Assembly: GCF_042242105.1 (NCBI RefSeq)
Contig: NC_092012.1
Span: 28,930,978 to 28,994,977, forward strand
Direction of reading: 5' to 3'
Length of the DNA: 64,000 nucleotides
DNA from: Pempheris klunzingeri
Taxonomy: Eukaryota > Chordata > Actinopteri > Acropomatiformes > Pempheridae
In this document: positions 1 through 63,339 of the stretch, piece by piece
Position numbering within the stretch: position 1 is the first letter of the stretch
Layout of the letters: every line of letters starts with the position of its first letter
The notes under the pieces: generated by a model
The model's database searches: none
What the model was told of the DNA's origin: nothing
What the model saw: the letters and a program-made list of their open reading frames with translations, nothing else
Made by a program: the position numbers and the translations under genes

Positions 1-260
1 CAACTTTTAAATTCACTATATAGATATTACATTATTGTGACCAGTTTTGATAGGTCAATGGTGGGCAATTGATTTTTGCAAATGCATAATGACAACATTG
101 TGTATATTTTATTTTGCTCACTACTTTAAATTAGGGATATTTTTTACCATGCTTGGGAAAAAAAGAGTTGTTTGGGAAGATTAAATTGGACAATAATGGT
201 GTTTGCAATTGATGTGGCTCATCTGCAAGGTAAATTCTGTCGTTATGAATGAGAACTTAC
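1..260. other. Mucin intron after the giant exon (window edge)
   Basis: AT-rich sequence downstream of the exon-30 donor. I see no further coding exon in these 260 bases; the next mucin exon lies beyond the window. Confidence 0.6.
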
Positions 261-3200
261 CAGGTGGGAACGTTGTGCCATTAAAAAAGCAGCTGCAAAT
301 TAAATGCCGAGTAGACGCTGGTTGAGAGGTTGGTCCTGTCAATATAGTTAACTCAGTTGTGGTAGGCACAGTGGTAGTAGAGGTAACTGTAGGTGGATGA
401 GTTGTAGTTGTTTCAGTTGTGGTGGAAGATGTTGTGGTTGTAGTAGTTGAATGTGTCGTAGAAGTTGACTGTGTCGTCGTTGAAATTGTAGTAGGAGTTG
501 ATGGTGTTGGACACGCACAGCATTTGAATTTAATCTCATAATCAAAACATTGTTGCTGAGGTCCTTGTTGTTTGTTGATACATATGAGACCCGCATCTTT
601 ATTGCAAGTCACAGCTTGCCCCAGCTGTGACATTGAAAGATCTGGGTAAGAAGCAGCTCTACATTGGACTTCTACTGGTGCTGAGCAAATGTGATAACCA
701 GCAGCGATTATCTTCTTGATGGAATCATTTTCTCCACCGTCCGGGCCTGGTGTAGGCTTGCCAAGATTGATCCAGTCTGACCATCCACATGTCATATCAT
801 GTCCGCCAGGGCAAGGTGCAGTTGTAGGTGTGTGAACTGTAGTTGTTTCAGTTGTGGTAGAGGGTGTAGTAGGAGTAGTAGTAGTAGCAGTAGGTGTGTG
901 AGTTGTAGTTGTTTCAGTTGTGGTAGAGGGTGTAGTAGGAGTAGTAGTAGAAGTAGTTGTGGTGGTTGTAGTAGTAGTTGGAGTTGTATTTGTTTCAGTT
1001 GTGGTTGAAGGTGTAGTCATTGTAGTAGTAGTAGTAGGTGTGTGAGTTGTAGTTGTTTCAGTTGTTGTAGAAGGTGTGGTGGTTGTAGTAGTAGTTGGAG
1101 TTGGAGTTGGAGTTGTTTCAGTTGTGGTCGAAGGTGTTGTGGTCGTAGTAGTTGAAATTGTAGTAGGAGTTGAAGGTGTTGGACATGCACAGCATTTGAA
1201 TTTAATCTCATAATCAAAACATTGTTGCTGAGGTCCTTGTTGTTTGTTGATACATATGAGACCCGCATCTTTATTGCAAGTCACAGCTTGTCCCAGCTGT
1301 GACATTGAAAGATCTGGGTAAGAAACAGCTCTACATTGGACTTCTACTGGTGCTGAGCAAATGTGATAACCAGCAGCGATTATCTTCTTGATGGAATCAT
1401 TTTCTCCACCGTCCGGGCCTGGTGTAGGCTTGCCAAGATTGATCCAGTCTGACCATCCACATGTCATATCATGTCCGCCAGGGCAAGGTGCAGTAGTAGG
1501 TGTGTGAACTGTAGTTGTTCCAATTGTGGTAGAGGGTGTAGTAGTAGTAGTAGCAGTAGGTGTGTGAGTTGTAGTTGTTTCAGTTGTGGTAGAGGGTGTA
1601 GTAGGAGTAGTAGTAGTAGTAGGTGTGGTGGTTGTAGTAGTGGTTGGAGTTGTAGTTGTTTCAGTTGTAGTTGAAGGTGTAGTCATTGTAGTAGTAGTAG
1701 TAGTAGGTGTGTGAGTTGTAGTTGTTTCAGTTGTTGTAGAAGGTGTGGTGGTTATAGTAGTAGTTGGAGTTGGAGTTGTTTCAGTTGTGGTCGAAGGTGT
1801 TGTGGTCGTAGTGGTTGAAATTGTAGTAGGAGTTGAAGGTGTTGGACATGCACAGCATTTGAATTTAATCTCATAATCAAAACATTGTTGCTGAGGTCCT
1901 TGTTGTTTGTTGATACATATGAGACCAGCATCTTTATTGCAAGTCACAGCTTGTCCCACCTGTGACATTGAAAGATCTGGGTAAGAAACAGCTCTACATT
2001 GGACTTCTACTGGTGCTGAGCAAATGTGATAACCAGCAGCGATTATCTTCTTGATGGAATCATTTTCTCCACCGTCAGGACCTGGTGTAGGCTTGCCAAG
2101 ATTGATCCAGTCTGACCATCCACATGTCATATCATGTCCGCCAGGGCAAGGTGCAGTAGTAGGTGTGTGAACTGTAGTTGTTCCAATTGTGGTAGAGGGT
2201 GTAGTAGGAGTAGTAGTAGTAGTAGGTGTGGTGGTTGTAGTAGTAGTTGGAGTTGTAGTTGTTTCAGTTGTAGTTGAAGGTGTAGTCATTGTAGTAGTAG
2301 TAGTAGGTGTGTGAGTTGTAGTTGTTTCAGTTGTTGTAGAAGGTGTGGTGGTTGTAGTAGTAGTTGGAGTTGGAGTTGTTTCAGTTGTGGTCGTAGTGGT
2401 TGAAATTGTAGTAGGAGTTGAAGGTGTTGGACATGCACAGCATTTGAATTTAATCTCATAATCAAAACATTGTTGCTGAGGTCCTTGTTGTTTGTTGATA
2501 CATATGAGACCAGCATCTTTATTGCAAGTCACAGCTTGTCCCAGCTGTGACATTGAAAGATCTGGGTAAGAAGCAGCTCTACATTGGACTTCTACTGGTG
2601 CTGAGCAAATGTGATAACCAGCAGCGATTATCTTCTTGATGGAATCATTTTCTCCACCATCAGGACCTGGTGTAGGCTTGCCAAGATTGATCCAGTCTGA
2701 CCATCCACATGTCATATCATGTCCGCCAGGGCAAGGTGCAGTAGTAGGTGTGTGAACTGTAGTTGTTCCAATTGTGGTAGAGGGTGTAGTAGTAGTAGTA
2801 GTAGTAGTAGGTGTGGTGGTTGTAGTAGTAGTTGGAGTTGTAGTTGTTTCAGTTGTAGTTGAAGGTGTAGTCATTGTAGTAGTAGTAGTAGGTGTGTGAG
2901 TTGTAGTTGTTTCAGTTGTTGTAGAAGGTGTGGTGGTTGTAGTAGTAGTTGGAGTTGGAGTTGTTTCAGTTGTGGTCGAAGGTGTTGTGGTCGTAGTGGT
3001 TGAAATTGTAGTAGGAGTTGAAGGTGTTGGACATGCACAGCATTTGAATTTAATCTCATAATCAAAACATTGTTGCTGAGGTCCTTGTTGTTTGTTGATA
3101 CATATGAGACCAGCATCTTTATTGCAAGTCACAGCTTGTCCCACCTGTGACATTGAAAGATCTGGGTAAGAAACAGCTCTACATTGGACTTCTACTGGTG

Positions 3201-6200
3201 CTGAGCAAATGTGATAACCAGCAGCGATTATCTTCTTGATGGAATCATTTTCTCCACCGTCCGGGCCTGGTGTAGGCTTGCCAAGATTGATCCAGTCTGA
3301 CCATCTACATGTCATATCATGTCCGCCAGGGCAAGGTGCAGTTGTAGGTGTGTGAACTGTAGTTGTTTCAGTTGTGGTAGAGGGTGTAGTAGTAGTAGTA
3401 GCAGTAGGTGTGTGAGTTGTAGTTGTTTCAGTTGTGGTAGAGGGTGTAGTAGGAGTGGTAGTAGAAGTAGTTGTGGTGGTTGTAGTAGTAGTTGGAGTTG
3501 TAGTTGTTTCAGTTGTGGTTGAAGGTGTAGTCATTGTAGTAGTAGTAGTAGGTGTGTGAGTTGTAGTTGTTTCAGTTGTTGTAGAAGGTGTGGTGGTTGT
3601 AGTAGTAGTTGGAGTTGGAGTTGTTTCAGTTGTGGTAGAAGGTGTTGTGGTCGTAGTGGTTGAAATTGTAGTAGGAGTTGAAGGTGTTGGACATGCACAG
3701 CATTTGAATTTAATCTCATAATCAAAACATTGTTGCTGAGGTCCTTGTTGTTTGTTGATACATATGAGACCCACATCTTTATTGCAAGTCACAGCTTGTC
3801 CCACCTGTGACATTGAAAGATCTGGGTAAGAAACAGCTCTACATTGGACTTCTACTGGTGCTGAGCAAATGTGATAACCAGCAGCGATTATCTTCTTGAT
3901 GGAATCATTTTCTCCACCGTCCGGGCCTGGTGTAGGCTTGCCAAGATTGATCCAGTCTGACCATCTACATGTCATATCATGTCCGCCAGGGCAAGGTGCA
4001 GTTGTAGGTGTGTGAGCTGTAGTTGTTTCAGTTGTGGTAGAAGTTGTCGTGGTTGCAGTAGTAGTTGTGGGTGTGTATGTTGTGGTAGAAGGTGTTGTGG
4101 TCGTAGTAGTTGAAATTGTAGTTGGAGTTGATGGTGTTGGACACGCACAGCATTTAAATTTAATCTCATAATCAAAACACTCCTGCTGAAGCCCTTGTTG
4201 TTTGTTGATACATATGAGACCCACATCTTTATTGCAAGTCACAGCTTGTCCCAGCTCTGACATTGAAAGATTTGGGTAAGAAACAGCTCTACATTGGACT
4301 TCTACTGGTGCTGAGCAAATGTGATAACCAGCAGCGATTATCTTCTTGATGGAATCATTTTCTCCACCGTCCGGGCCTGGTGTAGGCTTGCCAAGATTGA
4401 TCCAGTCTGACCATCCACATGTCATATCATGTCCGCCAGGGCAAGGTGCAGTTGTAGGTGTGTGAACTGTAGTTGTTTCAGTTGTGGTAGAAGTTGTCGT
4501 GGTTGTAGTAGTAGTTGTGGGTGTGTATGTTGTGGTAGAAGGTGTTGTGGTCGTAGTAGTTGAAATTGTAGTTGGAGTTGATGGTGTTGGACACGCACAG
4601 CATTTAAATTTAATCTCATAATCAAAACACTCCTGCTGAAGCCCTTGTTGTTTGTTGATACATATGAGACCCACATCTTTATTGCAAGTCACAGCTTGTC
4701 CCAGCTGTGACATTGAAAGATTTGGGTAAGAAGCAGCTCTACATTGGACTTCTACTGGTGCTGAGCAAATGTGATAACCAGCAGCGATTATCTTCTTGAT
4801 GGAATCATTTTCTCCACCGTCCGGGCCTGGTGTAGGCTTGCCAAGATTGATCCAGTCTGACCATCCACATGTCATATCATGTCCGCCAGGGCAAGGTGCA
4901 GTTGTAGGTGTGTGAGCTGTAGTTGTTTCAGTTGTGGTAGAAGTTGTCGTGGTTGCAGTAGTAGTTGTGGGTGTGTATGTTGTGGTAGAAGGTGTTGTGG
5001 TCGTAGTAGTTGAAATTGTAGTTGGAGTTGATGGTGTTGGACACGCACAGCATTTAAATTTAATCTCATAATCAAAACACTCCTGCTGAAGCCCTTGTTG
5101 TTTGTTGATACATATGAGACCCACATCTTTATTGCAAGTCACAGCTTGTCCCACCTGTGATATTGAAAGATGTGGGTAAGAAACAGCTCTACATTGGACT
5201 TCTACTGGTGCTGAGCAAATGTGATAACCAGCAGCGATTATCTTCTTGATGGAATCATTTTCTCCACCGTCCGGGCCTGGTGTAGGCTTGCCAAGATTGA
5301 TCCAGTCTGACCATCCACATGTCATATCATGTCCGCCAGGGCAAGGTGCAGTTGTAGGTGTGTGAACTGTAGTTGTTTCAGTTGTGGTAGAAGTTGTCGT
5401 GGTTGCAGTGGTAGTTGTGGGTGTGTATGTTGTGGTAGAAGGTGTTGTGGTCGTAGTAGTTGAAATTGTAGTTGGAGTTGATGGTGTTGGACACGCACAG
5501 CATTTAAATTTAATCTCATAATCAAAACACTCCTGCTGAAGCCCTTGTTGTTTGTTGATACATATGAGACCCACATCTTTATTGCAAGTCACAGCTTGTC
5601 CCACCTGTGACATTGAAAGATGTGGGTAAGAAACAGCTCTACATTGGACTTCTACTGGTGCTGAGCAAATGTGATAACCAGCAGCGATTATCTTCTTGAT
5701 GGAATCATTTTCTCCACCGTCCGGGCCTGGTGTAGGCTTGCCAAGATTGATCCAGTCTGACCATCCACATGTCATATCATGTCCGCCAGGGCAAGGTGCA
5801 GTTGTAGGTGTGTGAACTGTAGTTGTTTCAGTTGTGGTAGAAGTTGTCGTGGTTGCAGTAGTAGTTGTGGGTGTGTATGTTGTGGTAGAAGGTGTTGTGG
5901 TCGTAGTAGTTGAAATTGTAGTTGGAGTTGATGGTGTTGGACACGCACAGCATTTAAATTTAATCTCATAATCAAAACACTCCTGCTGAAGCCCTTGTTG
6001 TTTGTTGATACATATGAGACCCACATCTTTATTGCAAGTCACAGCTTGTCCCACCTGTGACATTGAAAGATCTGGGTAAGAAACAGCTCTACATTGGACT
6101 TCTACTGGTGCTGAGCAAATGTGATAACCAGCAGCGATTATCTTCTTGATGGAATCATTTTCTCCACCGTCCGGGCCTGGTGTAGGCTTGCCAAGATTGA

Positions 6201-9200
6201 TCCAGTCTGACCATCCACATGTCATATCATGTCCGCCAGGGCAAGGTGCAGTTGTAGGTGTGTGAACTGTAGTTGTTTCAGTTGTGGTAGAAGTTGTCGT
6301 GGTTGTAGTAGTAGTTGTGGGTGTGTATGTTGTGGTAGAAGGTGTTGTGGTCGTAGTAGTTGAAATTGTACTTGGAGTTGATGGTGTTGGACACGCACAG
6401 CATTTAAATTTAATCTCATAATCAAAACACTCCTGCTGAAGCCCTTGTTGTTTGTTGATACATATGAGACCCACATCTTTATTGCAAGTCACAGCTTGTC
6501 CCAGCTGTGACATTGAAAGATCTGGGTAAGAAACAGCTCTACATTGGACTTCTACTGGTGCTGAGCAAATGTGATAACCAGCAGCGATTATCTTCTTGAT
6601 GGAATCATTTTCTCCACCGTCCGGGCCTGGTGTAGGCTTGCCAAGATTGATCCAGTCTGACCATCCACATGTCATATCATGTCCGCCAGGGCAAGGTGCA
6701 GTTGTAGGTGTGTGAACTGTAGTTGTTTCAGTTGTGGTAGAAGTTGTCGTGGTTGCAGTAGTAGTTGTGGGTGTGTATGTTGTGGTAGAAGGTGTTGTGG
6801 TCGTAGTAGTTGAAATTGTAGTTGGAGTTGATGGTGTTGGACACGCACAGCATTTAAATTTAATCTCATAATCAAAACACTCCTGCTGAAGCCCTTGTTG
6901 TTTGTTGATACATATGAGACCCACATCTTTATTGCAAGTCACAGCTTGTCCCAGCTGTGACATTGAAAGATCTGGGTAAGAAACAGCTCTACATTGGACT
7001 TCTACTGGTGCTGAGCAAATGTGATAACCAGCAGCGATTATCTTCTTGATGGAATCATTTTCTCCACCGTCCGGGCCTGGTGTAGGCTTGCCAAGATTGA
7101 TCCAGTCTGACCATCCACATGTCATATCATGTCCGCCAGGGCAAGGTGCAGTTGTAGGTGTGTGAACTGTAGTTGTTTCAGTTGTGGTAGAAGTTGTCGT
7201 GGTTGCAGTAGTAGTTGTGGGTGTGTATGTTGTGGTAGAAGGTGTTGTGGTCGTAGTAGTTGAAATTGTAGTTGGAGTTGATGGTGTTGGACACGCACAG
7301 CATTTAAATTTAATCTCATAATCAAAACACTCCTGCTGAAGCCCTTGTTGTTTGTTGATACATATGAGACCCACATCTTTATTGCAAGTCACAGCTTGTC
7401 CCAGCTGTGACATTGAAAGATCTGGGTAAGAAACAGCTCTACATTGGACTTCTACTGGTGCTGAGCAAATGTGATAACCAGCAGCGATTATCTTCTTGAT
7501 GGAATCATTTTCTCCACCGTCCGGGCCTGGTGTAGGCTTGCCAAGATTGATCCAGTCTGACCATCCACATGTCATATCATGTCCGCCAGGGCAAGGTGCA
7601 GTTGTAGGTGTGTGAACTGTAGTTGTTTCAGTTGTGGTAGAAGTTGTCGTGGTTGCAGTAGTAGTTGTGGGTGTGTATGTTGTGGTAGAAGGTGTTGTGG
7701 TCGTAGTAGTTGAAATTGTAGTTGGAGTTGATGGTGTTGGACACGCACAGCATTTAAATTTAATCTCATAATCAAAACACTCCTGCTGAAGCCCTTGTTG
7801 TTTGTTGATACATATGAGACCCACATCTTTATTGCAAGTCACAGCTTGTCCCACCTGTGACATTGAAAGATCTGGGTAAGAAACAGCTCTACATTGGACT
7901 TCTACTGGTGCTGAGCAAATGTGATAACCAGCAGCGATTATCTTCTTGATGGAATCATTTTCTCCACCGTCCGGGCCTGGTGTAGGCTTGCCAAGATTGA
8001 TCCAGTCTGACCATCCACATGTCATATCATGTCCGCCAGGGCAAGGTGCAGTTGTAGGTGTGTGAACTGTAGTTGTTTCAGTTGTGGTAGAAGTTGTCGT
8101 GGTTGTAGTAGTAGTTGTGGGTGTGTATGTTGTGGGAGGAGGTGTTGTGGTCGTAGTAGTTGAAATTGTACTTGGAGTTGATGGTGTTGGACACGCACAG
8201 CATTTAAATTTAATCTCATAATCAAAACACTCCTGCTGAAGCCCTTGTTGTTTGTTGATACATATGAGACCCACATCTTTATTGCAAGTCACAGCTTGTC
8301 CCAGCTGTGACATTGAAAGATGTGGGTAAGAAACAGCTCTACATTGGACTTCTACTGGTGCTGAGCAAATGTGATAACCAGCAGCGATTATCTTCTTGAT
8401 GGAATCATTTTCTCCACCGTCCGGGCCTGGTGTAGGCTTGCCAAGATTGATCCAGTCTGACCATCCACATGTCATATCATGTCCGCCAGGGCAAGGTGCA
8501 GTTGTAGGTGTGTGAACTGTAGTTGTTTCAGTTGTGGTAGAAGTTGTCGTGGTTGTAGTAGTAGCTGTGGGTGTGTATGTTGTGGGAGGAGGTGTTGTGG
8601 TCGTAGTAGTTGAAATTGTAGTTGGAGTTGATGGTGTTGGACACGCACAGCATTTAAATTTAATCTCATAATCAAAACACTCCTGCTGAAGCCCTTGTTG
8701 TTTGTTGATACATATGAGACCCACATCTTTATTGCAAGTCACAGCTTGTCCCAGCTGTGACATTGAAAGATGTGGGTAAGAAACAGCTCTACATTGGACT
8801 TCTACTGGTGCTGAGCAAATGTGATAACCAGCAGCGATTATCTTCTTGATGGAATCATTTTCTCCACCATCCGGGCCTGGTGTAGGCTTGCCAAGATTGA
8901 TCCAGTCTGACCATCCACATGTCATATCATGTCCGCCAGGGCAAGGTGCAGTTGTAGGTGTGTGAACTGTAGTTGTTTCAGTTGTGGTAGAAGTTGTCGT
9001 GGTTGCAGTAGTAGTTGTGGGTGTGTATGTTGTGGGAGAAGGTGTTGTGGTCGTAGTAGTTGACATTGTAGTTGGAGTTGATGGTGTCGGACACGCACAG
9101 CATTTAAATTTAATCTCATAATCAAAACACTCCTGCTGAAGCCCTTGTTGTTTGTTGATACATATGAGACCCACATCTTTATTGCAAGTCACAGCTTGTC

Positions 9201-12200
9201 CCAGCTGTGACATTGAAAGATCTGGGTAAGAAACAGCTCTACATTGGACTTCTACTGGTGCTGAGCAAATGTGATAACCAGCAGCGATTATCTTCTTGAT
9301 GGAATCATTTTCTCCACCGTCCGGGCCTGGTGTAGGCTTGCCAAGATTGATCCAGTCTGACCATCCACATGTCATATCATGTCCGCCAGGGCAAGGTGCA
9401 GTTGTAGGTGTGTGAACTGTAGTTGTTTCAGTTGTGGTAGAGGGTGTAGTAGTAGTAGGTGTGTGAGTTGTAGTTGTTTCAGTTGTGGTTGTAGGGTTTG
9501 GAGTTGTGCCGCATTGCACTGTCTTGCAACATTTTACCTTTACTTCATAATCTAAACATATAGGGGGTTGCTGTAAGCTGTTCTCACACAGGAGTCCTTG
9601 GTTATTACATGTTACTGTTTGTCCTAATTGGTTTAGGGGAAGACCTGGATAGTGTACAGCCTGACACTCCACTGCAACTGGATTTTTACAGATATTATAT
9701 CCTTTCTTGATGATATATTTGATGGTTTCATTGTCCCCACCTCCAGGACCATATTCAGGGTAGTCTGCACTTATCCACTGTGACCATTCGCACAAAGTTT
9801 CCTGACAAGGTGTTTCAGTAACATATTTTGTTGTTGTAGATATTATTGGAGTTGAAGGTTTTGAGGTTGAGCTTGTAGGTATTGTTGAAGGAGTAGGCTT
9901 TGTTTGGCATGCATTATAGTCACAACACAAAACTCTGACTTGATAGTTAAAGCACAAGGCCAGTGGTCCTGACTGGTCTTCATTTCTGCATGTCAGTCCC
10001 TTTGCAAGATTGCATTGCACCACTTGTCTCACATTGTCAATGGTGACATTAGGGAATTTCTCAGCTCTGCATTGGATCTGGCTTGGCTCGTCACATATCT
10101 TGTTTCCTGCCTTTCTAATATTTTGGTATGTTTCACTGTCTCCTCCCGGAGTTCCCAGTGTGGGGAAGCTGGTATCATACCATGGCGACCATTCGCAAGG
10201 CTTACACGTAACTATGGACACACATAATAGGGGGGTTGGTTATGTGGCGCATCTTACATACAGTTAAATAATCTTCATGGTCTGAAATGAAAATCTTGCC
10301 ATACCTGGTGTGGTTGATTTAAAAACGAAGGTGGTTGGTGACTGGCTGGTTGTAGTGGTGGTTGGTGTTGGCACTGGGCATGGATATGAGCCCTTGTCAA
10401 TAGTACCATTCTTCCCACACACTGCTGTGATACAGTTACCATGCCCGTCTGTTGTGTTATAAATTGTACTGCCAGGGGGATATTTGTTTCCATGATATAT
10501 GCAAATACAGGCTGTAAAGAGAGTAGATCTATTATCAACATATTAACCTATAATATTGCATTTGTACAATCCACAGTCTTGTCAAATCATTGCATACCTT
10601 GGACATCGTAACGGCATTGGATAGTCATTGAACTGCAAGTACTTCAAGAGAGAAAACAAAGTATATTGTCAGTTGTCATTTGTATTCAGTTAATTTGAAC
10701 TCCACAAGGCTATATAACCTCAATTTGTACATGGAATATTTGCAAGACCTACCATGTATGGCAGTTTTCAGTTGTTGGCACTTTGTCGCCATTATTATAG
10801 TGTCTCCCTTCTGTATCGTAGCAGCCACATTGCTCTTTTACAACACATGTCATTGAGTCCTCATCAAAATATGGCTGAGCAGGAGGACATTTTGGATAGC
10901 AACCTAATTGAAATATACAAAGTTTTTATGCAGTGCAAGAGGTGGGCATTTTTAAAACCATTGGTACAACCAGTTGAAAGTAGTAATGTTTTTGTGCCCA
11001 CCTGGCATTGTGGTTCAATGAATGATAAGCAATTTTTAAACAAATCTTGAATCTTAAATTTAATTTGATGAGCAGAGGTGGCCATCTTATAAAGACCTTA
11101 TCTTGTACCTTCTAGAGGAGGTATCTGTGTAGAGCAGATGCCTGAGGGGTTCCTGCAGGTTTTCATACAAGGAGATCCACATGGCATGTAGTGCCATTCA
11201 CATTCACCAGGAGGATTGTAGTAATCACAGAAGAGAGCTAGAAAAGATAACAATACTTATTTGGTACAGGTATGTGGAAAGCATACTGATGATTTTTAGA
11301 CCTTTGGTACATATTCTTATTTTGACCTTTGGACTAAATACAACTACTTAGTTGTACTTAGTGCAAATACTTGTATAAGTACTACTGTGGTAGCTTCAGC
11401 TATCTTCTATGCTTTGGTCTGCTGGACAGACTGATCAGGAGGGCTGCCTCCATTCGGGACTGTCCCTGGACTCCACTGAGGTGGTGGTTGAGACTGCACA
11501 AGACTGTGGGGGCTCTGAGTAGCTCAACAGTGTTACATAAATCTCCTGACAATATCACAGCCACTACCTACGCTTTATCACCACTCATTTCTGTTTTTGT
11601 TACTCTTACTACTGTGCGACACTAGCAATATCCTGTGCAATACATACATGTATATATTTCATATATATTTTGATTTTTCTTCTCTCATATTTTTATATTT
11701 GCATTTATTTTTACATTTTGTTATATACCTTGTTTTTGCACTAATTCTACTACTGACACTTTATTTCTGCACCTTCTGTGTCTCCTCTGTTGCTGTAACA
11801 TGTACATTTTCCCAGTGTGGCATAAATTAAGTCTCTCTTATCTCATCTTATCTTAAGTAGATATGGTACCTTGTTCAGAAGTCAGAGCATTGCAATACTG
11901 ATGAAAATGACCTTGGAGTTATTTTCATGATGCTATTACATTTTGTTTTTCTTAGAAATTCATTCAGCTTCACTGTGAACAGTGCTTTTTTAGGGAATGC
12001 CCAGTTGACAGTCATGCAGTTACACACATTCACACTCAAACCCAGTTACAACCACAGCCACAAACAGTGGCCAGTGAGAAGCTCCCCTCGACCTGTTGGG
12101 GGTTAAGGGTCTTGCTCCAGTGGTGGAAATTAGGGATAGGCAAATGCCCTGTTGTGATTGATGAAAGGCCAGCTTTTCTTACCTATAGGCTACCACTGCC

Positions 12201-15200
12201 CACTTTGAAATGAAAATGAAGAGTCCCCTTCACACTCATTTTTATTACCACTGTTGCAATAATATGGTTTGGAAAAGACTGAAAATGATAGGTGATGGTT
12301 GGAACGTAGATCAACTGGTAAATCAAGAGCTTAGCCTTCCGGCTCAGCTCCCTCTTCACCACAACGGACCGGTACAGCACCCGCATTACTGCAGATGCCG
12401 CACCAATCCGTCTGCCCATCTTGCACTCCATTTTACCCTCACTTGTGAAAAAGACCCCGATATACTTAAACTCTCCCACTTGGGGCAGCAACTTACTCCC
12501 AACCCAGAGGGGGCAATCCACCCTTTTCCGGCAGAGAACCATGGCCTCAGACTTAGAGGTGCGGACTCTCATCCCGACCGCTTCACACTCAGCTGCAAAC
12601 CACCCCAGCGCATGCTGAAGGTCACGGTCTGAGGAAGCCAATAGAACCACATCATCTGCAAAAAGCAGAGATGCAATTCTGAGGTCCCCAAACCGGATGC
12701 TCTCCTCACCTCGGCTGCGCCTTTAGATCCTGTCCATGAAAATCATGAACAGGATCAGTGATAAGGGACAGCCTTGGCGGAGTCCAAAACCCACTGAGAA
12801 CACGCTTGGGCGACAATAGTAGAGATATGGATGCTTGAAAATGGTGTGCTGAAGATATCTGCACAAAGCAAATTTATGTTGCGAGCATAATGATGACGCT
12901 TATTCCTGATGGATTCCATGCATAGCTGTTGATACAAGAGGAAGACCAAGCAGAAGAAGACCAAGCTGTTTCAGATAAGGCCTTCACACTTTTATTATTG
13001 CCAGACTACTCAAGGAATTTCCCACATAAATGGTCCATTAGTGCTTGGTACATTAATTAAATCCACTAGAAGTGCCAAGAAATCATTTCACTATTACTAC
13101 CTAAGATGTGAAACTGGGAAGATCAGAGGATTAAGGAAGCCCAGAAGAGAAATGACGCCGTCAACCAAGACAGCAAGATCAGGCAGACCAACCTGTGCAC
13201 CACCTGGACGGACTACAAGAAAGCCTACAACTCAGTGCCACACACATGGATACTGGAATACTTGGAAATGTACAGCATCAACAAGGCACTAAGAGCCTTC
13301 GTCAAGAACTCAGTGGGGTCATAAAAACAACTCAACTCAAAGAAAGCTGTACAAGTTACCATCAAGTGCGGCATACACCAAGGTGATGCACTATCCGCGC
13401 TGCTGTTCAGCCTAGGCCTGAATCCCCTCAGCCAAATCATCTCAAAGACTGGTTAAAGACACCAGTTCCAAAGTGGAGCAAGTCTCCTCAGTCTCCTCCT
13501 CCACATGGATGATATCAAGCTGTATACCAGGAATGAGTGCGACATCAACTCACCTATTCACATCACCAGAATGTCATTCAGACTAGATAAGTGTGGTCAG
13601 ATGGTATCAAAGAGAGGGAAGATGATCAGTACAGAGGGGGTCGAACCACCAGAAGGCAGCATTGCAGATGTTCAGGACAGCTACAATTACCTTGGGATCC
13701 GGCAGCCAAATGTGAACCATGAGGATGCCCTAGCTAAAAAGAGTAAGCCTGAAATCTTGAAAAGTTGGCCAAATCGGAAGAACAAGGTCCAAGCCATCAA
13801 CACGTACGCTCTGCCAGTCATCAGATACCCCGCTGGTGAAATAAGTTGGCATGAAGCGTTTCATCCCAAGTTCAGCACACTGAGACTGTACATTTAGTGG
13901 AGGCTGAGTACTGGTGAGCGTGAGAGCCATGGTCCAGGACAAAACAACCAAGATATGAATACATCAGGAAGATGGCCCCCAAAGATGAACTACTAAGTGA
14001 ATTCCTCAGGCAACAGAAAGCCGATAATGCAGAAGAGGAGGATGAACCTACATGGAGGGACAAGGCTTACTACATGGCATGTACCACTGACAGATAGAAG
14101 AAGTGGTGGATATCAAGAAATCCTACCACTGGCTGTAAAAGGCTGGGTTAAAAGACTGCACAGAAGCACTAATCGTGGCAGCACAAAAGTAGGCACTTAA
14201 TGCACGATCAATACATGCAAGGTGGTAGGTGTATCTTTGAACTTAAAACAGAGCTGGGCTAACTGTTTTAGACTGATTCCTCAAAGTCATATTCTTTTAA
14301 TAGTAGTAGTTGTTGTCTCAGTTTCAAGCGCTTTCCTATTATTTTGTATGTATCAAAATGGTTGAAGATAGATTGTTATTAATTTCATATGTAGGCTGCT
14401 TAAAATAATCCAGAAGGCACACAAATAATGTTTTACAAATTAAATCATAAAGGCTATTCCTGAATATCATATCATTTCTCTATGATTTGAAATCTCAAGG
14501 ATTTTTTGGCAAAAGCCTACTGTATGTAATTTTTATTAAAACAAAACTAAATTGAACCCACAATAGTTTTCATTGAATATCATATCAAGATCATTTCACA
14601 AAATTATATGATACTCAGAAAATCCTTCATGACATTGAATATCTTGTGAAGTTTTTCCTACTCCTTAGTTGGTTCTTTAGAGTATTCTTAACTGTAGTTC
14701 TCAGACCTTTGATAAGTACAGGCCCTGGATTATAAAATGAGTCGATAGTATTTAAGATTTAAACTTAAAAAGTCTAAGGACAAAAATATAGCTATTACTG
14801 ATGAAAAAATTACAACATACGATTTGATATTACAGCAGTACTACAGTAAAACTGGATATTTTTGCTTTACCTTATGCAACCCTGACAGACTCATGTGTTT
14901 CTTTGTCATAAATATGTGTTTAGCTCAGATAAACTGTATGGACATGTGCTTATTTAAGAATGTTTCACTCTGGTTACTCACGGCAGATCTTGGGGGTTCT
15001 CCATCGTATACAGATGCCCGCTTGGTTACAAGATTCAGCGTAAGCGGCCACAGCAGTGCAGAAACATTCACAGTCTCCACCAGTGTCACAAGCACATGAG
15101 TCAAACACACATGCCTCATAGTATGGCGCCGGGTCCACCTACAGACAAATGTATGATGATACACTAATTAAAAATAGAGTAAAAAACAGCAACTCCACAA

Positions 15201-18200
15201 CACAAAATGCTGAAAGACATTGCTGCACTACTTCAAGTTAACTTTATCTAAGAAGAAAATATTGTGCTTTTTGAAATATTGTGCCGATGAACAGTTGATA
15301 GATTACGTTATATTGTTAGAGATTGAACAGTCCAACAGTATAAAACATAGTTATAAAAACAAACTTCAATTTCAACACCACAACTATATAACATTAAAAT
15401 ACTGCATAGATGTTAATGCACTGGTATTATGATCAAATAATATGGTGTATTGTAAAATAATTGAACACTCTCTGAAAAGTCCCATTCTACTTCAGTAGTG
15501 TGGCATTGCTAACTTTACTTAAGTTTTCATTTATATCCTCCACCACTGTATGCACAGACAAGCATGTGAACGTGGCTATGATTGAAAATCCCTTATGTAG
15601 TTTAAACAGATGAACAACCCCCGTCCTTCTAAACCTGGGCCATAATTATACACATTTTGGTGGCTAAATTACTAATGGGTAATTAGGGCCCGAGCACCAA
15701 GCGGTGCGAGGACCCTATTGAAACTGCGTGGGGGAAAAACATGCAAGGGAGGAAACGTGCAAGTACCCAAGAACCAAGAGGTGTAGGGAACCCACACGCC
15801 CCGAGCACGAAGGGGATGAAAAAATACGTCAAATGCAAAAAACCAGGCGACCAGGGGCCAAAAACATAGTTGAAATGCAAGGAATTATTTTTCCTCTTCT
15901 TCTCCTTCTTTTCCCAAATGAATTGCATTTTTGGGGGCCTAAACATGCACGAAAACTCATGAAACTTTGCAGAAAATTCAGTTGTGGTGAAAAATTACGT
16001 ATTTCATAGGTTTCGCAAATGGGCGTGACAAAATGGCTCTATAGCGCCACCTAAACTCAGCCCCGGAACTGCGTTTTATGTACATGTACAAAATTCGGTG
16101 GGTTCATGTATCTCTTCGAGACGAACAAAAAAGTCTCTTGGAGTGATGACCTCAACCAAACGGGAAGTCGGCCACATTGGATTTTTCACACATTTTTGGC
16201 GATTTACAGGGGACGTAAATGAACGAACTAGTCCGAGGGGGTTGAAGCGATCGACTTCAAACTTGGTCAGCTGGTAGAGAAGGCATTAATGATGAAAAGT
16301 TATTAAAGGTCTCTACAGATTTGGAACGGTTTGGGCGTGGCGAGCTGTCAAAATTCAGTGTCTCGCCATGACTCGCAATGAAACAGGAAGTTGTTAATAA
16401 CTTGACTGTACATGATCCAATCAGCACCAAACTTGACATGTCTGATGAGAGTCCCGCCCTGAAGACGTCTAAATGTCAATGTTCACTCACAGTCATAGCG
16501 CCACCTGGTGGTGACAGGAAATGCTATGTTTTACATTATGATGGCTCAAGACCAGCCAGTTGATCAGATCCACTTCAAATTTGGTCAGGAAAGCCTCAAG
16601 ACGTTGATGTTGGTCTGTAGTGAAAACTGCATGCACTCCGTCAAAAGCTGTTGCCGTGACAACGCGGCGATTTTCGATAATACATTTTCCTTCGCCATGA
16701 GCATTAAAAGTGCTGTAACTCCACTGTACAAGATCCTATCTTCACCAAATTTATACCGTTTGATGACTGTCCAGCTCTGAAGACATGTACATGCCAATTT
16801 CTAACAATAGTCATAGCGCCACCTAGTGGCGGGAGGAAGTGCATGGTTTTTTCTCGAACGTCTCTCTCTCTCAGGAGATAAATCACAGATATTTCAAATT
16901 TGATCAGTGGAGAGAAGAGGGTCTGCTGAACACGTACATGTAGAACTACACTCATTGCGCCACCTGGTGGAAACAGGAAGTAACACCTCCGTGCCAATAA
17001 TCATTTGATTTGCATGAAATTTTCACAGTGTAGTCAACGCTTCATATACTGGAATACAGGATGTGATTAGTGACTGTTCTCTAGCGCCACATAGGGGACA
17101 CAGGAAGTGACATGTAACTGCTTCATGCACTGTCCAAAATACATGAAAATTCTGATCCGCATGGAAGGGTCAGAGTCCAGCAACAGGACGAAGCCGCCGC
17201 ACACCCCGACATGCAGGAAGGTGCGAGGGCCCTCCAACGCTGCTTGCAGCTTTAATTGGTAATTGGAATTGGTCCAGTAGATCTTGTCAGCGAGCAGTTA
17301 CAAAAACAGGCTTCAATGGCTGCATCATAATACTTCGGGGCAACTGTGCCTGATCAAAGTACATCTTCTAATTCCAAGTGTCTGAAAATATGGAGTAAAA
17401 TTAGCCTGACATGGTCTGAAAAAGATTTTGATGGTTCTCATCTACAAGAAATGTTGCCTCTCTCACCAAGTCCTGCTCGCCCAACCTGGAACTACGCCAT
17501 TTTGTGTGTATATATATATATTTATCTTGTGTTCTACTCTTACTGTTAAACTTTGTGTGTTATTTTATTTTATTATTGTTTCAGCCTGGAACAGGCACTC
17601 AGAACATTTCACTGCACATTATACTGTGTATAACTGTGTATGTGACAAATAAAGGTCTTGAATCTTGAATCTTGAAGTGGGAAATATGGCCTGGTGCCAT
17701 TAGGGGGATGTTCTGTATTCGTTTGCTGGGTACCAGAGCAAATTGCATGGCAATCTAGCTGTCTGTCTTTGAGCACCCTTTTCATGGACAAGATACTGAC
17801 AAAGGGACTGAATGTAAAGTGAGTGGTTACAAAAATGATAAGGATTCATTCTGTCTCAAAGCCCGTCTAGCAGTGTTATTCTGGATTAGGGACAGGCAGA
17901 GCAGCTGAAAAATGAATCATCATCACTAGGCCCTGCTGCTTGAAAGGTTAAAAAAAAACAGAAACCTACCGTGGAATGGCAGGCAGAGAAGACCTCACTC
18001 TGTATAATGCTGCACTGTTTCTGGGACCATGACTGTCGGTATGGGTTGGCTGTGCAGGGGCTCGTGGTGCTCTGAGCATCGGGGCAGCTTGGTAAATCCT
18101 TCCAGCTGTTCCCAAACACCAGTGGATTGACCACCACAGCATGACTCCTTGTAGTTAAGTCATTATTTGCATTGCCATCGTAGTTGCCGCACAGCCCACA

Positions 18201-21200
18201 CACATGACCCTGAAAAATTAACATAGTAGTGGTAATTATATCATGCTGATTAACTTAAATATCAAATTAAAGCTTATCCTTTGTTGTCTGAACAAAATAA
18301 TTGTAGCCACATTAAAACCAAAGCCCTCCTTCACATATTGTAGGGTTACCTCATATTTTGGACTGAGCTTGATGAACAAGCTGGTCTTCCTGTCCCACAT
18401 GAGAATGAGTCCATTGTTGGCTTCAATTACAAGGTAGATGCCCATAGTGCTGTAATGGAATGGAGCTGTGTCTCCATTTCCACCTGAAAGCAACTGGTAG
18501 CTTCCCTCTGTTAGAATCAGTTCGGCGCTCTGGATAAAATAACAGAAAGGAAATGTTTGCTAGGCAGTTTTACCACTTTACTGGAGCCATCAAATAATTG
18601 CCAACAGTTGCTTCACTTTGTTTGCAACAGTGAGACGCTCTATTTCTGTCCTCCTCTATTCCATCAACATCACCCTCAATAATAAAGTGATTTTGTGAAA
18701 ACTGAAAAGGCCTTTTGGAGGAGAGGCACAACATCTTTAAGAATCCAAAGCAAATCCAGTTGACTGTCTTAGCACTGCTAGATATGCCAGATCTGTTTAT
18801 TTGTGTGATTGTCTGACATTGAGTCAGACAATGCACTTGGCTTTTGAAAAGGTTTTAGATTGACTGTGTACCCCCAGGAGGATCCTGATGGTCTTGGAGC
18901 AGGTGGTTCCTGTGGTTCCACAGGGAACATTCTCAGTGAGCACTCTGAAGGTTCCATTAACCTGAGCACTGCTACAGTAGTCCTGTGGAAACAGGACACA
19001 GGACACACACACACACACACACATACACAATTCAATTCATGATTCCTATATTCCTGGGGCCATACATAATAGCCTATAGAAATAGCAAATTCCAACTACC
19101 TTTACGATTTCTATTTTATCTCACTTCATCTTATCTCAGGTTAGGAAAACCTAAATACTCTATCCAATATCAGTTATCAACTTTTATGTCTGTTACCTAG
19201 AAACCAATGGTACTTTCCTTAATCTATTTTCTCATTGAAAAATAATGACATAAGAATGACATTAACATTGAAGTAAAAACAATGACTGGCCCTCAGCTTC
19301 AAGCCAGATGAGTTAGAGGTGTTGGTAATATCTGTTGAGAAATCCAATGATGTTCTGTTTGGAAAATTTACAGCAATGCTAACTCTGAAGTAAAAAAAAG
19401 ACAGTGGTAGCAGACACGGTCCCTGCAATATTCTGTATCCAATGGAGCGTTGATATGCTAAAAGAGAAATAAGTAGGCCTACACTATCTAATGAAACAAA
19501 GAGGAAGGCAGCTCAATCTACTGATCTGTCACGAGCCTCTCTGTGAATAAGTTCCGCTTGTTGGCATTTTGTTAGTTGTGTAAAAGCAGTAAAAGTGTAG
19601 CCATAAGGATTAATCTAAACCCTTGTTACTGAGGTTCCCAAGCATGTAGATGAGATATAAAAGTTAGTAATAAGATCTTTGAGAGAATGATGGAGGACAT
19701 GTCTCAGAGCGTACGTGTTACACACCATTGACCAAAATTTGAAAATTGTACATAACAATAATTTTTAAAGGATGCACATTTACAATGATTTAGTGTTAAA
19801 GGGAACAATGACATTTAAGAATATGATTTTGTGCATCATACCAAAACCTTTCGTAGAACCGGTATTATCTAATGATTTTGTCTGAGATGGGTCACAAAGT
19901 GCACAGTCGCAGAGAAAGTCCTCAGTCCAGAAAGTTGTGTCTGAAAATGCACATCAGTTCCATCACCCCACCCTGTTCACCAGCTGTTTTTGTGTGCATT
20001 CATACCTGCACGAGAATGTATTCACAGCTGCCATCAAAGGTAAAGCGCTTCTGATCAAACGTTACGTAGTGTCCAGCACCATAAACTGAGCAGGTTCCAT
20101 CACACTGGTCCGTAGTGCACTGCCACTTCCTGTCTTTACAGGTGCTGTAACCAGATATAGATAAGATTGCATTAGGTTTCTAATAATGAAATCTTTTTGT
20201 TTATACAAGTCAGTCATAGATGGAGGTATAACCAAAAGAATTAAGCTTTACAGCATTTCCTTCCACTTGTGATTCACTTACCAGGTGTTGCAGTCCACCT
20301 TGGTGGTCTCTCCAGGCTGGTAGGAGATGCCGTTGTGGACACAGGAACAGGCCTCTGGCTTGATGCAGCCTCCTTTACCATCAGATACCATCCCAGATGG
20401 ACACACGCAGCCGGAGACGCACCCTGTGGTCATCTGGAGAAAAGATCAAACTTACAACCCACTGTCACATGTTTAATTTCTGCTGCAGCAGATAACAAGT
20501 TTAACCTCTAATGCCAATCTGTATTTTCATGTAAATTGTCCTTTATGTTGGGGATAAGGTGACTCACACAGGCCATATCTAATGTGTTGCAGCTCTTCTC
20601 ACACTCAGTTCCTTTTGCCCCTGGACCATTGGCAGAGCAGTTGAAGAACACCATGGGAGGAGCACAGGCAGCTGAGAAAAGACAAGTCTGAAATCACTTT
20701 ACTGTATTCCTAAAATGAATCACTAATCTTACACCACTGTTGTCCTTATTTAATGCAACATTCAAGACTGTTCATTTTACACCTTAATTAATGGAGCTCA
20801 GATAATTTTGCCCAATGTCAAATATCCTGAGAATTACAGTCTCACATATAATTTACAGAGCAAAATTAAATTGTAACATCTTTAAGTGATGCTGGCCAGT
20901 TGGCAGCTGCTTTTTCTGTCTGTCACTATTCTTCTTTTAGATGTTTACTATAAACTGCTGTAAACACTGTCCCCTGGCAGCAGGAAACAGCTTTGGCTGG
21001 GCTGAAGCTTGCATGTATTCTCAAACAAAACCATGAGAATATTTGATGTGTTTGAATTTAGTTCGATTTTTTAAAGGATATTTTTGCAAATTGTCTCCCC
21101 AAAATACCCGAAGCACATTCATTTAAACTTTCATGTTTATTTTAAGCCCCCCATCTACTGATTCCTGCTCACAACAGGTTACAGCAAATTAGTTCCTCCT

Positions 21201-24200: not shown

Positions 24201-27200
24201 AAAGACCCACCTCAAGTGTGTCTTTTTAAAAATAACAGTGTGTCCTTCATGAGTAATAATCTCATTGTACGTTATTTCTGCATACACACAACAGGGATTG
24301 CATTTTATACAGTTTACATAGAAAGAAAAGTCATGTAATTTGAAAAAAGGGTATGATAAGAAAAATAAATGATTATAAAGTATTCATAATTTGTAGTAAA
24401 TATTGGTTACTTACTAATTTGGTTAGAATATGTTAGAACTCTATTAGATCCCTTAATGTCACAGTGGGAATGTAGAATAGAACAAACTGGGGAAACAGTT
24501 GTTTCTAATTAAAAAAGTGAGCTTGTATGTCAGAAAGTAGTGATGCATCGACTCCTCAGAGCAGAAGTATCACAGCCAGATCTTCACTGGCTGCTTTACC
24601 ACGTCAAAAATCACATGACCACCCTAAACAAAGAAGCTGTTACGCTGGTTTTTAATATGTGATATTCTCGTCAGTCTGTTTAAGTATTTAAAAACAGAGA
24701 TGTTGATTGTTTGACTGGGATTTTTATATTACAAGCTTTATTGAACAAAATATCACTAATAAAAGCGGTAAAGGAGTGGATTTAATTGTATCAGCATAAC
24801 TGCTTCATAGTGAGTCAGTGCTTCAAAAGGCTGTTTCCCCCATCAGCACTCTAAGTGCTAGGGAGTCCATGTTGGATTTCTCTGTGAAGCTTGTTCAAAC
24901 TGACATCTGATACGTTTGAGGACACGTGGTCCCTTGAAAATATTTAGGTTTTTAATGCTACTGTTATCAAGTATTCCACATCACACACATAACACACACT
25001 CTTCGGTTTCACAGTTCCTCACTACTCACCACAGATAGTTTTCCTCCAGCCGCGGATCTGGATTCCTGCAGCTGCACAGGCGTGGACGTAGGAGGAGACG
25101 GCAGCACACATGCAGTCCTCACTTCTCTCACAGTTACAGCTGTCATACATGCAGTTCTGTGAGGAGACAAAGTTAAAATAAACACTTCTGGAGACTGGTA
25201 TAGGTATAGTCCACAGAAATATGGAAGAGCTGTAGCTGTGAGGCCTACCTCTTTGTAAGAGTCAGGGCTGATCTCTGAGTGACAGGGCGTGAACACTCCC
25301 TGGGGGTCACTGAGCATGGAGCACCAGTGCTGGGCGTATTTTTCTGTCATTGACACACAAGCAGTGAGTTTGTCATTCTGAAGAGTGAAACAGTGATAAC
25401 TGAGAATCTAAGAGACAGAGACCTACCATTATCCAGACTGAGACTGCAGGGGTTCTCAAAGTTGGTCTTAACATTGGGGCAACCAGCATGTGTCTTCCAG
25501 CTGTTGACAAAACCAGCTGCTGTGGCATCTGGAACACCACTGAGCTTAAGAAAGTCATCAGCTTGGTTGCTGTTGAAGTTCCCACACAGACCTGCAGGCA
25601 GACATCATCTTGTTAATGACGACACCTCAGCCTTTAATTTGGAGGTAAACCGAATTGATCTTGTGAGTGCTTTGTCCCCACAGGGTGGCACAGTCATCAT
25701 TTACAAATCACTTTTACAATGCTGAAGACACTGCATAAATTTGGTTCTGGTTCCAAACTGCATAAATATTCAATACAGAGAAAATGAGCCACACTGAGGC
25801 ACAAGAGCAGCTAATTAAAAAGAAAAACCTGCTGTCTGTGTTTGTGTAGGGTTTTACTTTACTTTAAGATTTGTTTACTCATTACAGAATAATACAAAAT
25901 ATTAGGTCCACCAATAAGATCTTTAAAATCCTTAAACCTAATCAAAATTTTCTATAGTTTCTGTAAATTTCACCAAAATGTACCTTTGCAAAATAACTCC
26001 ACTATATAGTTTGAAAAAGGATCAAAGGTTGAAAATAGAATTACATGGAATACTGAATATGTAATCATTGTGTTATGTATTGTGTTATGCAGTATGACTG
26101 CTGATTTAAGGTAGCTTGATATCATCACTTTACAGTGAATAAGCACCTCTGGCCTCATGAAGCCAAGAAATATGATGTTAAAGCAAACCAGTACCACATT
26201 GTTGTATAACCATTTGACTGTTTTCAAGCTCAGCGTTCATATCTTCTCCCTTTAGCTGATATGTGTGATACTATTTCACATGCTGTTTATGTTGTAACAC
26301 TGATTTTCTATTACAATTTCATTTGAACAAGTGTACACGGTATGCATGTGTGCTGGAATAGTTGATTGAGTTTGATGTGCCCCTATTTTCCTTATTTTAT
26401 TCACAAAGACCAACAGGGATCAATAACACCGTCACTGTTCGAGTTCTGTGGGACGTTTCCAGTCTGAGAGCACACAGAGATCATTGTAGTGTACATACCG
26501 CAGGTCTTGGCCTTATGGTCAGAGGTCAACGTTACATGAAGCTGCATGATCGGCTTTAGCTGCACCTCCAACAGAACACCAACAGATGTCTGGACCAGCA
26601 GGTAGAACGAGGATGCCTTGAAGGCAGTGATCCCAGCTGGGGGTTAAGAGAAAGGTTGGGGATGGGAGTTGTTAAAGCAATGGAAGGGAGGAGACAGAAT
26701 CAAATACTATTTGTGTGTCCATGTGGCAAATCAGGAAGACAGTTCAGGTAAAGCATGTTATATTTTTGTGCATGCTGTCATCCTATCCAGGCCACAAACA
26801 AATTAGATTTCACTGGCTATGCAGAAAAGACGGTCACGTTGTTTGAATTGTGTGGAAACTGGATGTTCATTGGAATGAGCTTCTGTAGGAGTTGGAAAAT
26901 TGTGCTTAAAAATACTGCACCATTTGTATGTTTTTTTAATTCATTTAATTTTTACTTATTTATTTTTTATTGATTTTTTTTTTTTTTTTTTACAATAGTT
27001 GTGTAATTTCTTTCCAAAGTATACACCAGTCCTTGTTACAGTGAACCCTACTGTGGAGCTGACAAAGTGACCTCACATGGTCACATCATGTCACCAAGAA
27101 CTCTTTCTCAGTGTGTAATACATACGACACACACTAACACCAACACATTCCCAATATCCAGACATTTCCATGCAGGCGCCCAGTGTTGCTAGTGCAGTGA

Positions 27201-30200
27201 CGCTTTCAGATGAACTGTTGGTGGTATACATTACATAGAAAGATGTGCTGTATCTCATGTATGTATGTAGTGCATCTTTCCTACATGGCAGGTACAGAAA
27301 AATTCAGAGGTTAACACTTACCAGCAGAAAAGGGTAACTGAGCGAAGATGCCATTAACATAAACCTTGCCATTGGGCTGGATGGTGATCACCTTCATGTG
27401 AAAGGAGACAACACATTATTACTGAAATGAATTAATTCTGCTGTAAAACAAAAAATCCTGCTTGCCCTGCATGACTATGCAACACTGATAAAGTATAAAA
27501 GTGGACACAGTATGCACTGTGATGGATTCCAAGATTGCAAGATTATTTTCACTGCACACTGAAATAAATACAGAACCATAAACTGGCTGAATTATAAGAA
27601 AAACCCATTTTACAATCTCCAACTTCATTGTATGCTTTGGAAAATTATGGGTGCCAACCACAGGTTTGGTATTTGAAGATGAGTAAAACAAAACTGTTAT
27701 TGTGTTTTCCTCCATCATATTGCATTTAGATTCAGGGTTTCTGCCTGTGAGGTAAGATAGATAGAGTTGTGTGTGACAGTGTCTCTGTGTGTTTCACACT
27801 TACATTAGCCCCTCCGGACAAACCCAAGGTGATAGACTTGAGGCAGGTTTCACTCTCAGTCAGTCCACACTGCACCAGTTCTCCCTGGACCACAAACTGG
27901 GTTCCACTGCAGTCCTGAACACACACACACGCACACACACACACAAAACTATTCAACTGCTGCTCAATTGATAAAACATACCTGCAGATGGCAGTGTGAA
28001 TGGTACAGAATACAGAAGACACTTTGGTTACATTTGTGTCACCTTTTAGATTTTGCCTTTTTAAATATCAGATGATCTGATTTAATACGTGGGATGATAC
28101 GGAGATGACATACATACCTCTACTCCTTCGTTTTTATTATATACAACACTAGCTAACTGGTGTCTGGACTTGTGTAGCAACGTCATTGTGCATGTATCAC
28201 CTTAGCAGGTGTGTGTGTGTGTGTGTGTGGTATAATAGCAGTGATGATGATGTGTTCTACCTTAGCCAGAACGTAGGAGCAGTCCCCATGGAAGGTGTAG
28301 ACTTTCCCATCAAAGGTGTTGATGTGAGCTCCTCCCTCCACAGAGCAGGTTCCTGGACAATTCTCCTCTGTACACTTCCACTGACCACTCTCACACACAC
28401 TGTCAGCACACACAATTTAACCTTAATTGCCAGTGGGTAGCCTATTGACTAATTTGCAGCTACTTCCAAAATTTTTACATAAAAATTTGACTAAATTACG
28501 CTGAACATTATCTGGGACTGAATGTATCTTTGTACTGGACAAACACAAATTTACTTCTTAATTCTCATAGCAAACAAACACACTTTCCATAATGTGGAGT
28601 GACTGACATACTACGTATCATACCATTTTTTGCAGTTGCTGGTGTAGGACTCTCCAGGCCCATAGATCTTGCTGTTGAAACTGCAGGAGCACTTGTTCAG
28701 TGGCACACAACCGTTTCCATTCAAATCGTCCAGCACCATCCCTGAAAGTGAGTAAAGTGTTGCTGGATTAGACCACACTGTGTGGGTGTGTATGAGAGTG
28801 AGGACGCTTTGAGAAGTGACGACATTTTAGCTGGTCCTCACAATGGATAGATTCAAAGGACAGTTTAAAGATGAACCCTTTCATGCATAGAGGTCACTAC
28901 AGTGTGCAGTTATTCAAAAGTTTTCTTGTATATGCATGCGTTTTGATGGCATAGTTGCTCATCAGCCACTACAGTGGATGCTGTTGCATCATCTCATACA
29001 CTGCTACCCAGTGCCAAGCCATTGCAAGTGAAAAAAAAAGATGGTCGACAGACAGCCAGAAACACCAAGTTGCTCATTTGTTTCTGTTCAAACCTTCTAG
29101 AAAAAGGGACCCTAGCAGGAAAGAAAAATATGGAGACAAATCTTGTTTTTCATGCCTAAAGATGAATAAAAACACTCCTGACTGAGGTTATCGTAATTCA
29201 TGCATGAAAGGGTTAAAACATGATAAGGTTCAGGCTCAGGTTAGGATTAGTTTTAGGCTAGGGTTAGGGTAAGATATGAGTTTACACATTTAGTCGTGAT
29301 GGTGAAGGTTAGGCTATTGGGCTTAGGAATGCATTATATCAATGAGGGGACCTCACAAAGATGGAAGAACAAGCACGGATGTGTGTGTGCACTGTATGCA
29401 TATATGTATGAGCGTCACTCAGCTATACCTGCAGGGCAGAAGCATCCATCGATGCAGTGGTTGTCACATGTTTGGCTGGCCTCTGGGTTGGAACAGGTAT
29501 CGGCACAGGGACTCCCACACTCTTTGTACTCCATTTTCTCGGGACATGACTTCCCTGTGAATACATCAGTTGTTTATATCAGTTGTTGCAACCTCTCTGA
29601 TAGCATTCATTCATACATGCTTCCCCAGTCTACCCTGATTCCACTGGTCTGTGGGTGTGAATGTGAAATAAAATGTATGAATACAAAAAAGGATTCAGTA
29701 GATACAGCATTTTTCTGGTGGTCTGTTGCAGAGTCTTAAAGTTACAACAAACATGAGGCCCTGTGTGGGTGGGCCTGAAATTGGTCATTTTAATCACAAC
29801 TCTAAGTCAAAGTTCATGATCTCTTTAATCAACTACTGTATGTCAAGTACTTAAACTCACAATTCTCTTCCTCACAATGTTCCTCACCAACTTTCTTGAA
29901 TCATGCTTACTGTACAAACACCAGTATTGACTGAAACTGAGGCCTGGAGTTACTCTTGTGTTCACAGACTTCATGATGGCTGAAACATTTTATTTTTTTT
30001 TGGTCATACGCATGAAATATAAACATATTTGCACATTATTTTTAAATGTAGCATTTTCTGTTTCTGTTAGTTACAGTGTGTCTTTGCATGATTTGAGTGC
30101 GTAGACAAAAGCCCAGACAGAGCTGACAACCCCTCCTACTGATGCAAGATTTCATTAGCAGTGTCTAATGAGTGTACTCACAGCAGAGCTCTTTGGTTCG

Positions 30201-62726: not shown

Positions 62727-63339
62727 GTAAGATGGTTTAATTTTGTTTTCATATCTCACGTTTTATTGACTCCAGAACACGCGTAATTCAGGGTACATAA
62801 CCCAACTAGATTTAAGACTTCACATTTAAGGGAGGGGTAGTATTCTTAGATTCCATGCCACTTGCATATCATTATCTCCTATGTCCACTCTGAATGAAAG
62901 GCCATAAATCTGGGACTTCAGTTGTCTCGGTTTTGTCTGAGAGAGGCCCACAGCGTCGGACTTTAAAAACCCCTGGTCTGCACTGTACAGTGAAGTACTT
63001 GCATTTGGGTGTGTACTTTGGGTCAATACCGAGTATCAATAGGAGTACTTAATCATACCATTAGATTATACAGTTTCTGTTCCATTGCAATGACTTCACA
63101 CTTACATCGGTGTCAGTTATCACTCTGCTGCTGCTCAGATTTCAGGTGTCAGTAGCTGCCACAGAGGATCAGTGTGCCACTTGATGTCATAGGAGGAATA
63201 CAAATGACTGGGAAAGAGTGTATTTTAGTTCCTTTTAATTCGATTAAAATTACAATGTAATCGATTACATTAAATGAATGAAAACAAAAAAAGTAGATTG
63301 TTGCTCGTTGTGGTGTGAGGGTCATTCACCCGACCCATT

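Follow-up and report, generated by a model that had tools for sequence, protein, structure and literature searches.

A 20-copy CysD exon in a predicted gel-forming mucin gene of Pempheris klunzingeri

A stretch of 64,000 bases from the fish Pempheris klunzingeri (C1:28930978–28994977, here called the window) contains a 9.95-kb open exon on the minus strand that encodes a long row of CysD domains. Which kind of mucin does this exon belong to, how did its domains become so numerous, and what could their number mean for a mucus gel? We consider it highly probable that it is the central exon, built of CysD domains and proline-, threonine- and serine-rich (PTS) linkers, of a secreted gel-forming mucin of the MUC2/MUC5 type (gene g1), with 20 CysD domains as stickers and the last 18 of them multiplied, or kept similar, via unequal exchange. 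The window is free of Ns and lies on a contig of 36.7 Mb; the genome examined comprises 646 Mb in 439 contigs and is represented by one assembly.

The minus-strand frame holding the exon is open from stop to stop over 3352 amino acids (aa; window 184–10239 without its stop); when the exon was shuffled 200 times by mononucleotides, no frame exceeded 211 aa. The exon is bounded by an AG acceptor and a GTAAGT donor, and a similarity-driven exon chain over four mucin genes also picked C1:28941188–28931238, which corresponds to window 10211–261. All 20 WxxW motifs of the frame read C.W..W, the Pfam family PF13330 (Mucin2_WxxW) matched 20 stretches with 1534 bits, and each of the 20 domains carries ten cysteines, counting the one that precedes the motif. 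The domains occupy 1865 of the 3317 aa of the exon. The linkers between them are repeat-rich, 38–131 aa long and composed of 47–72% Ser + Thr across all 20, the last linker being counted together with the frame end, which is non-PTS. A match to YabA in the same frame (67 bits, with 0 stretches passing alone) was taken as chance.

An earlier sequence-only reading of this DNA had proposed 20 CysD domains in one exon, two divergent and 18 nearly identical. The motifs, Pfam stretches and splice sites bear out the count, and the identities bear out the split: CysD1 and CysD2 share 40% and 55% protein identity with CysD3, respectively, and CysD3–20 show a mean nucleotide identity of 97.7%, with 19 of 279 columns variable and 14 distinct sequences among the 18. 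Within this set CysD3–14 form twelve copies with an exact 450-bp (150-aa) period and 57-aa linkers. The six copies CysD15–20 are set apart by shared positions and make up a second subfamily, whose five linkers between copies measure 102–131 aa (Table 1).

Table 1. Positions of the central exon, its CysD domains and further mucin features (window coordinates unless a contig is named)
Feature	Position	Strand	Basis
Central exon, 20 CysD and Thr-rich linkers	261..10211	-	motif count, Pfam, exon chain, splice sites
CysD1, divergent	9907..10206	-	
CysD2, divergent	9511..9816	-	
CysD3–14	4141..9399	-	
CysD15–20	511..3999	-	
Modelled exon right before central exon (D3 region end and first PTS)	10305..10511 (C1:28941488-28941282)	-	exon chain
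C8, third VWD assembly (match contains one TAG)	14983..15141	-	PF08742
VWD3, two pieces (19994-20092 and 18141-18344)	18141..20092	-	PF00094
C8, second assembly	25037..25159	-	PF08742
VWD2 start	28252..28347	-	PF00094
C8, first assembly	30183..30401	-	PF08742
VWD1, inside first modelled exon	32538..32768	-	PF00094
Fourth C8, outside window	C1:28928029-28928196	-	PF08742
Fourth VWD, outside window	C1:28929720-28929956	-	PF00094
g2, tandem mucin directly downstream of g1	C1:28914761-28872015	-	frame 28895017-28882643

The surroundings of the exon have the architecture of a gel-forming mucin. VWD, C8, TIL, VWC and Cys_knot domains flank it on the same strand and in order: VWD and C8 recur at three upstream places, forming three N-terminal assemblies, and in both hand-trimmed N-terminal pieces VWD, C8 and TIL exceeded their cut-offs. 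Both pieces of the VWD3 match cross stops, as expected of matches that span exon edges. In the C-terminal piece VWD (87 bits) and C8 (56.5 bits) were over the cut-off, and the last pieces yielded VWC (31.9 bits, cut-off 27.6) and Cys_knot (55.1 bits, cut-off 24); VWC fell below its cut-off (20.9) when a presumed intron stretch was kept in. The gene models are approximate, as the exon chain retains one internal stop in g1 and some presumed intron sequence, and the first modelled exon begins within the protein. Judged by its sequence, g1 is a gel-forming mucin, complete except for the signal-peptide exon, which lies outside the model. In a comparison with solved structures the D1–D2 region scored 866 bits against MUC5AC, 840 against MUC5B and 708 against MUC2, and searches with two paralogues, g2 and gB, gave the same order. 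Because these genes rank the three mucins alike, a MUC5 label for g1 is tentative, and a choice between MUC2 and MUC5 from the best PDB match was dropped. The authors of a gilthead seabream study deem the naming of these mucin genes somewhat arbitrary and regard their muc2 and muc5 models as not very consistent in the middle part (PMC11035888).

A genome-wide search yielded at least 44 Mucin2_WxxW matches: 20 in the central exon, six in each of two genes on contig C5 (gA and gB) and 12 that are single or in pieces. The exon series of gA and gB resembles that of g1, and their CysD domains lie in host frames of 2721 and 2180 aa at spacings of 198–289 and 213–555 aa, respectively, compared with 150 aa in copies 3–14 of g1. 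The tandem neighbour g2 has an open frame of 4125 aa with 50% Ser + Thr and no Mucin2_WxxW match in the genome-wide search; over three coding-strand frames its 44-kb stretch contains one C.W..W, located between modelled exons. As the three paralogues in the same two clusters have six, six and zero CysD domains, the number is peculiar to g1 among the four genes. When CysD-like matches on C11, C18 and at C1:29.78 Mb were scanned for [CS].W..W, a single motif was found, in a stop-containing frame. In gilthead seabream, chromosomes 4 and 8 are described to carry VWD-type mucins that are arranged in two tandem pairs and vary in WxxW number, comparable to those on C1 and C5 (PMC11035888).

How the 18 similar copies arose can be read in part from their relationships. 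We built a tree from 35 CysD rows (22 different), three human rows included, in which bootstrap support is unsettled and long branches meet. Its starred clades are g1 copies 3–20, the six copies of gA and the six of gB; CysD1 and CysD2 received no placement in this tree (weak open forks). The copies thus group by gene, which can reflect multiplication within each gene or homogenisation of older copies, and the tree does not distinguish between these two. Among the twelve 450-bp units the difference grows with distance (r = 0.45; 11 of 5000 shuffles gave a value as high); nearer units are therefore more alike, as unequal exchange predicts. We propose that the last 18 CysD-plus-linker units would have been multiplied, or kept alike, within g1 by this process.

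Sequence and model comparisons of the domains are consistent with a CysD fold. CysD3 matched the MUC5AC structure 8ov0 with 85 bits and, at E 0.001, solved chains of 10 distinct sequences, all from MUC5AC, MUC5B or MUC2. An AlphaFold model computed from 12 of the 20 window domains had a mean predicted local distance difference test (pLDDT) score of 74, and Foldseek retrieved five structures at E ≤0.001, again all MUC5AC, MUC5B or MUC2, with template modelling (TM) scores of 0.39–0.52. A MUC2 loop that contains two phenylalanines is described to dock CysD1 onto the polymer bead, and CysD1 of MUC5AC is described as devoid of these phenylalanines (PMC11912381). We equated this loop with the segment between the sixth and seventh cysteine, which is our own reading of that description. 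The segment measures 9–11 residues in g1 and contains an aromatic residue in none of the 20 domains, a likeness to human MUC5AC CysD1; docking of the MUC2 type is therefore unlikely, and the CysD domains of g1 are probably free for other contacts. In CysD3–20 the loop carries four to five Gln and one Lys, and transglutaminase links at these residues are conceivable, though unlikely. Gln is also present there in the human MUC5AC and MUC5B rows.

From what is known of the family, the N-terminal VWD assemblies and the C-terminal cystine knot of g1 would join monomers into disulfide polymers, the Thr-rich linkers would be O-glycosylated, and the 20 disulfide-stapled CysD domains would be stickers that bind weakly and reversibly at intervals along the chain. 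With one sticker per 150 aa in copies 3–14 and one per 198–555 aa in the two CysD-bearing paralogues, each chain would be expected to form more cross-links and the mesh to be smaller. We infer these properties for g1, as well as its tissue. The sequence-only reading had suggested a denser or differently porous gel through cross-linking by CysD domains, and for strings of CysD domains a stiffening effect has experimental backing: rCYSx12, an engineered protein of 12 consecutive CYS domains, is reported to make mucus less permeable and its mesh smaller (PMC6861317, PMC4431476). Since this protein stiffens mucus, a gel effect of g1 is plausible, and by analogy a denser gel would be a reasonable expectation.

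The same reading had also called the copy number high, noting that mammalian MUC5AC and MUC5B have fewer than ten CysD domains and MUC2 two. The human figures agree with published ones (typically nine, seven and two; PMC11912381) and 20 indeed exceeds them. However, published counts for many species reach 25 CYS domains in one mucin, tandem WxxW amplification is described for Mucin-5AC genes (PMC8831618), and 27 CysD domains are reported for a lateral-line family in the little skate (PMC11765562); the count is thus high yet within published bounds, and in outline the idea about function is already established. With human MUC5AC and MUC5B g1 shares the domain order, the alternation of CysD and PTS within one giant central exon and the presence of nearly identical CysD sets inside one gene (PMC9712336), but it differs in the number of domains and in its linkers of the lengths given above. 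Strings of many CysD domains are further found in rCYSx12 and in Oikosin1, a 13-CysD protein of the mucus house of Oikopleura (PMC6861317, PMC4431476); in these sources both are described as CYS only, Oikosin1 as having no O-glycosylated regions, whereas g1 has VWD and knot ends.

Several other explanations have to be weighed. One could assign g1 to the fish lateral-line cupula family that includes zebrafish muc5AC, whose members have 2–27 CysD domains, are predicted to be secreted and, in zebrafish, include one required for normal cupula length (PMC11765562). The arrays are alike, but this family is reported to differ in structure from human MUC5AC and to lack its PTS domains and VWD/VWC ends, and g1 has PTS linkers, a cystine knot, four VWD regions, C8 and VWC; we regard this assignment as extremely improbable. 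Alternatively, the assembler could have duplicated 450-bp units so that the true exon is shorter. Two pairs of units (7 and 8, 6 and 10) show no difference over 450 bp, and the exon contains three exact repeats of at least 450 bp, the longest of 1032 bp. However, the 14 distinct nucleotide sequences among the 18 copies, the unlike linker lengths of the two subfamilies and a frame that stays open for 3352 aa without an N argue against such an expansion, and the size of the contig makes long-read data likely. On balance we find it distinctly unlikely.

A much stronger contender, to which we give slightly less than an even chance, is neutral minisatellite drift, in which unequal exchange lets the copy number vary within limits, with no particular consequence for the gel. 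The repeat-rich linkers fit this explanation, as do the variation of the CysD number among human MUC5AC alleles (PMC10983947) and the copies of gA and gB, which also differ little from one another within each gene (99.8% and 99.2% identity). The ratio of nonsynonymous (dN) to synonymous (dS) divergence points both ways. Averaged over all 18 copies (153 pairs) dN was 0.014 and dS 0.062; between the two subfamilies (72 pairs) the means were 0.022 and 0.119, and within copies 15–20 (15 pairs) 0.009 and 0.048. Inside copies 3–14 dN is not below dS (66 pairs, 0.0075 compared with 0.0029, from very few changes). The low overall ratio is thus contributed by the subfamily split and copies 15–20, and purifying selection across all 18 copies is not borne out. 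Against drift stand the excess of dS over dN in those two comparisons, the ten cysteines intact in 20 of 20 copies and the effect of the engineered poly-CYS protein on mucus (PMC6861317), although none of these points shows selection on the copy number itself.

Several further points weigh against a mucin with 20 functional stickers. Copies 3–14 give no sign of purifying selection, so that a constraint on how many copies this block of twelve has, or on their sequence, is unsupported, though its cysteines and frame are intact. With a single assembly and an exact repeat of more than 1 kb the copy number could be off, and since human alleles of MUC5AC differ in their CysD number, 20 may be that of one allele. 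The CysD model is modest (TM about 0.5 to 8ov0) and serves as a consistency check only. Self-association of CysD domains is known from other mucins, and those of g1 are candidate stickers in a gene analysed at the level of genomic sequence.

Further features were seen in and around the mucin genes. A tract of 178 bp at window 28238–28414, across the VWD2 start, is 97.2% identical between g1 and g2 (C1:28907103–28907280), and the other four blastn matches of this comparison show 81–88% identity; the tract looks like a recent gene conversion. Just upstream of gB, C5:11238257–11239330 contains a partial duplicate, in pieces that match parts of gA at up to 96% identity. A reverse transcriptase fragment (window 12189–12722, minus strand; 26.2 bits, under the Pfam cut-off of 29.6) sits between the third C8 exon and a modelled exon at 11109–11255. 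On the plus strand, window 62112–62780 holds an open frame that matches Fringe/chondroitin N-acetylgalactosaminyltransferase families, a glycosyltransferase gene close to the mucin.

As a sequence finding, g1 adds one further high count to a range already described. A more far-reaching idea, which we think unlikely, is that the tandem sisters stand at opposite extremes, g1 as a cross-linker with 20 CysD domains and, among its linkers, twelve of 57 aa and g2 as a CysD-free, Ser/Thr-rich partner. Co-secretion of the two would then give a natural two-component gel, in which the ratio of g1 to g2 could determine how densely the mucus is cross-linked. Since paralogues with six and zero copies share the genome with g1, the relation of CysD number to mesh size could be tested in one fish. 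Provided that its 20 copies are real, g1 would offer a natural parallel to the engineered 12-CysD protein, set here between the polymerising ends of a mucin.

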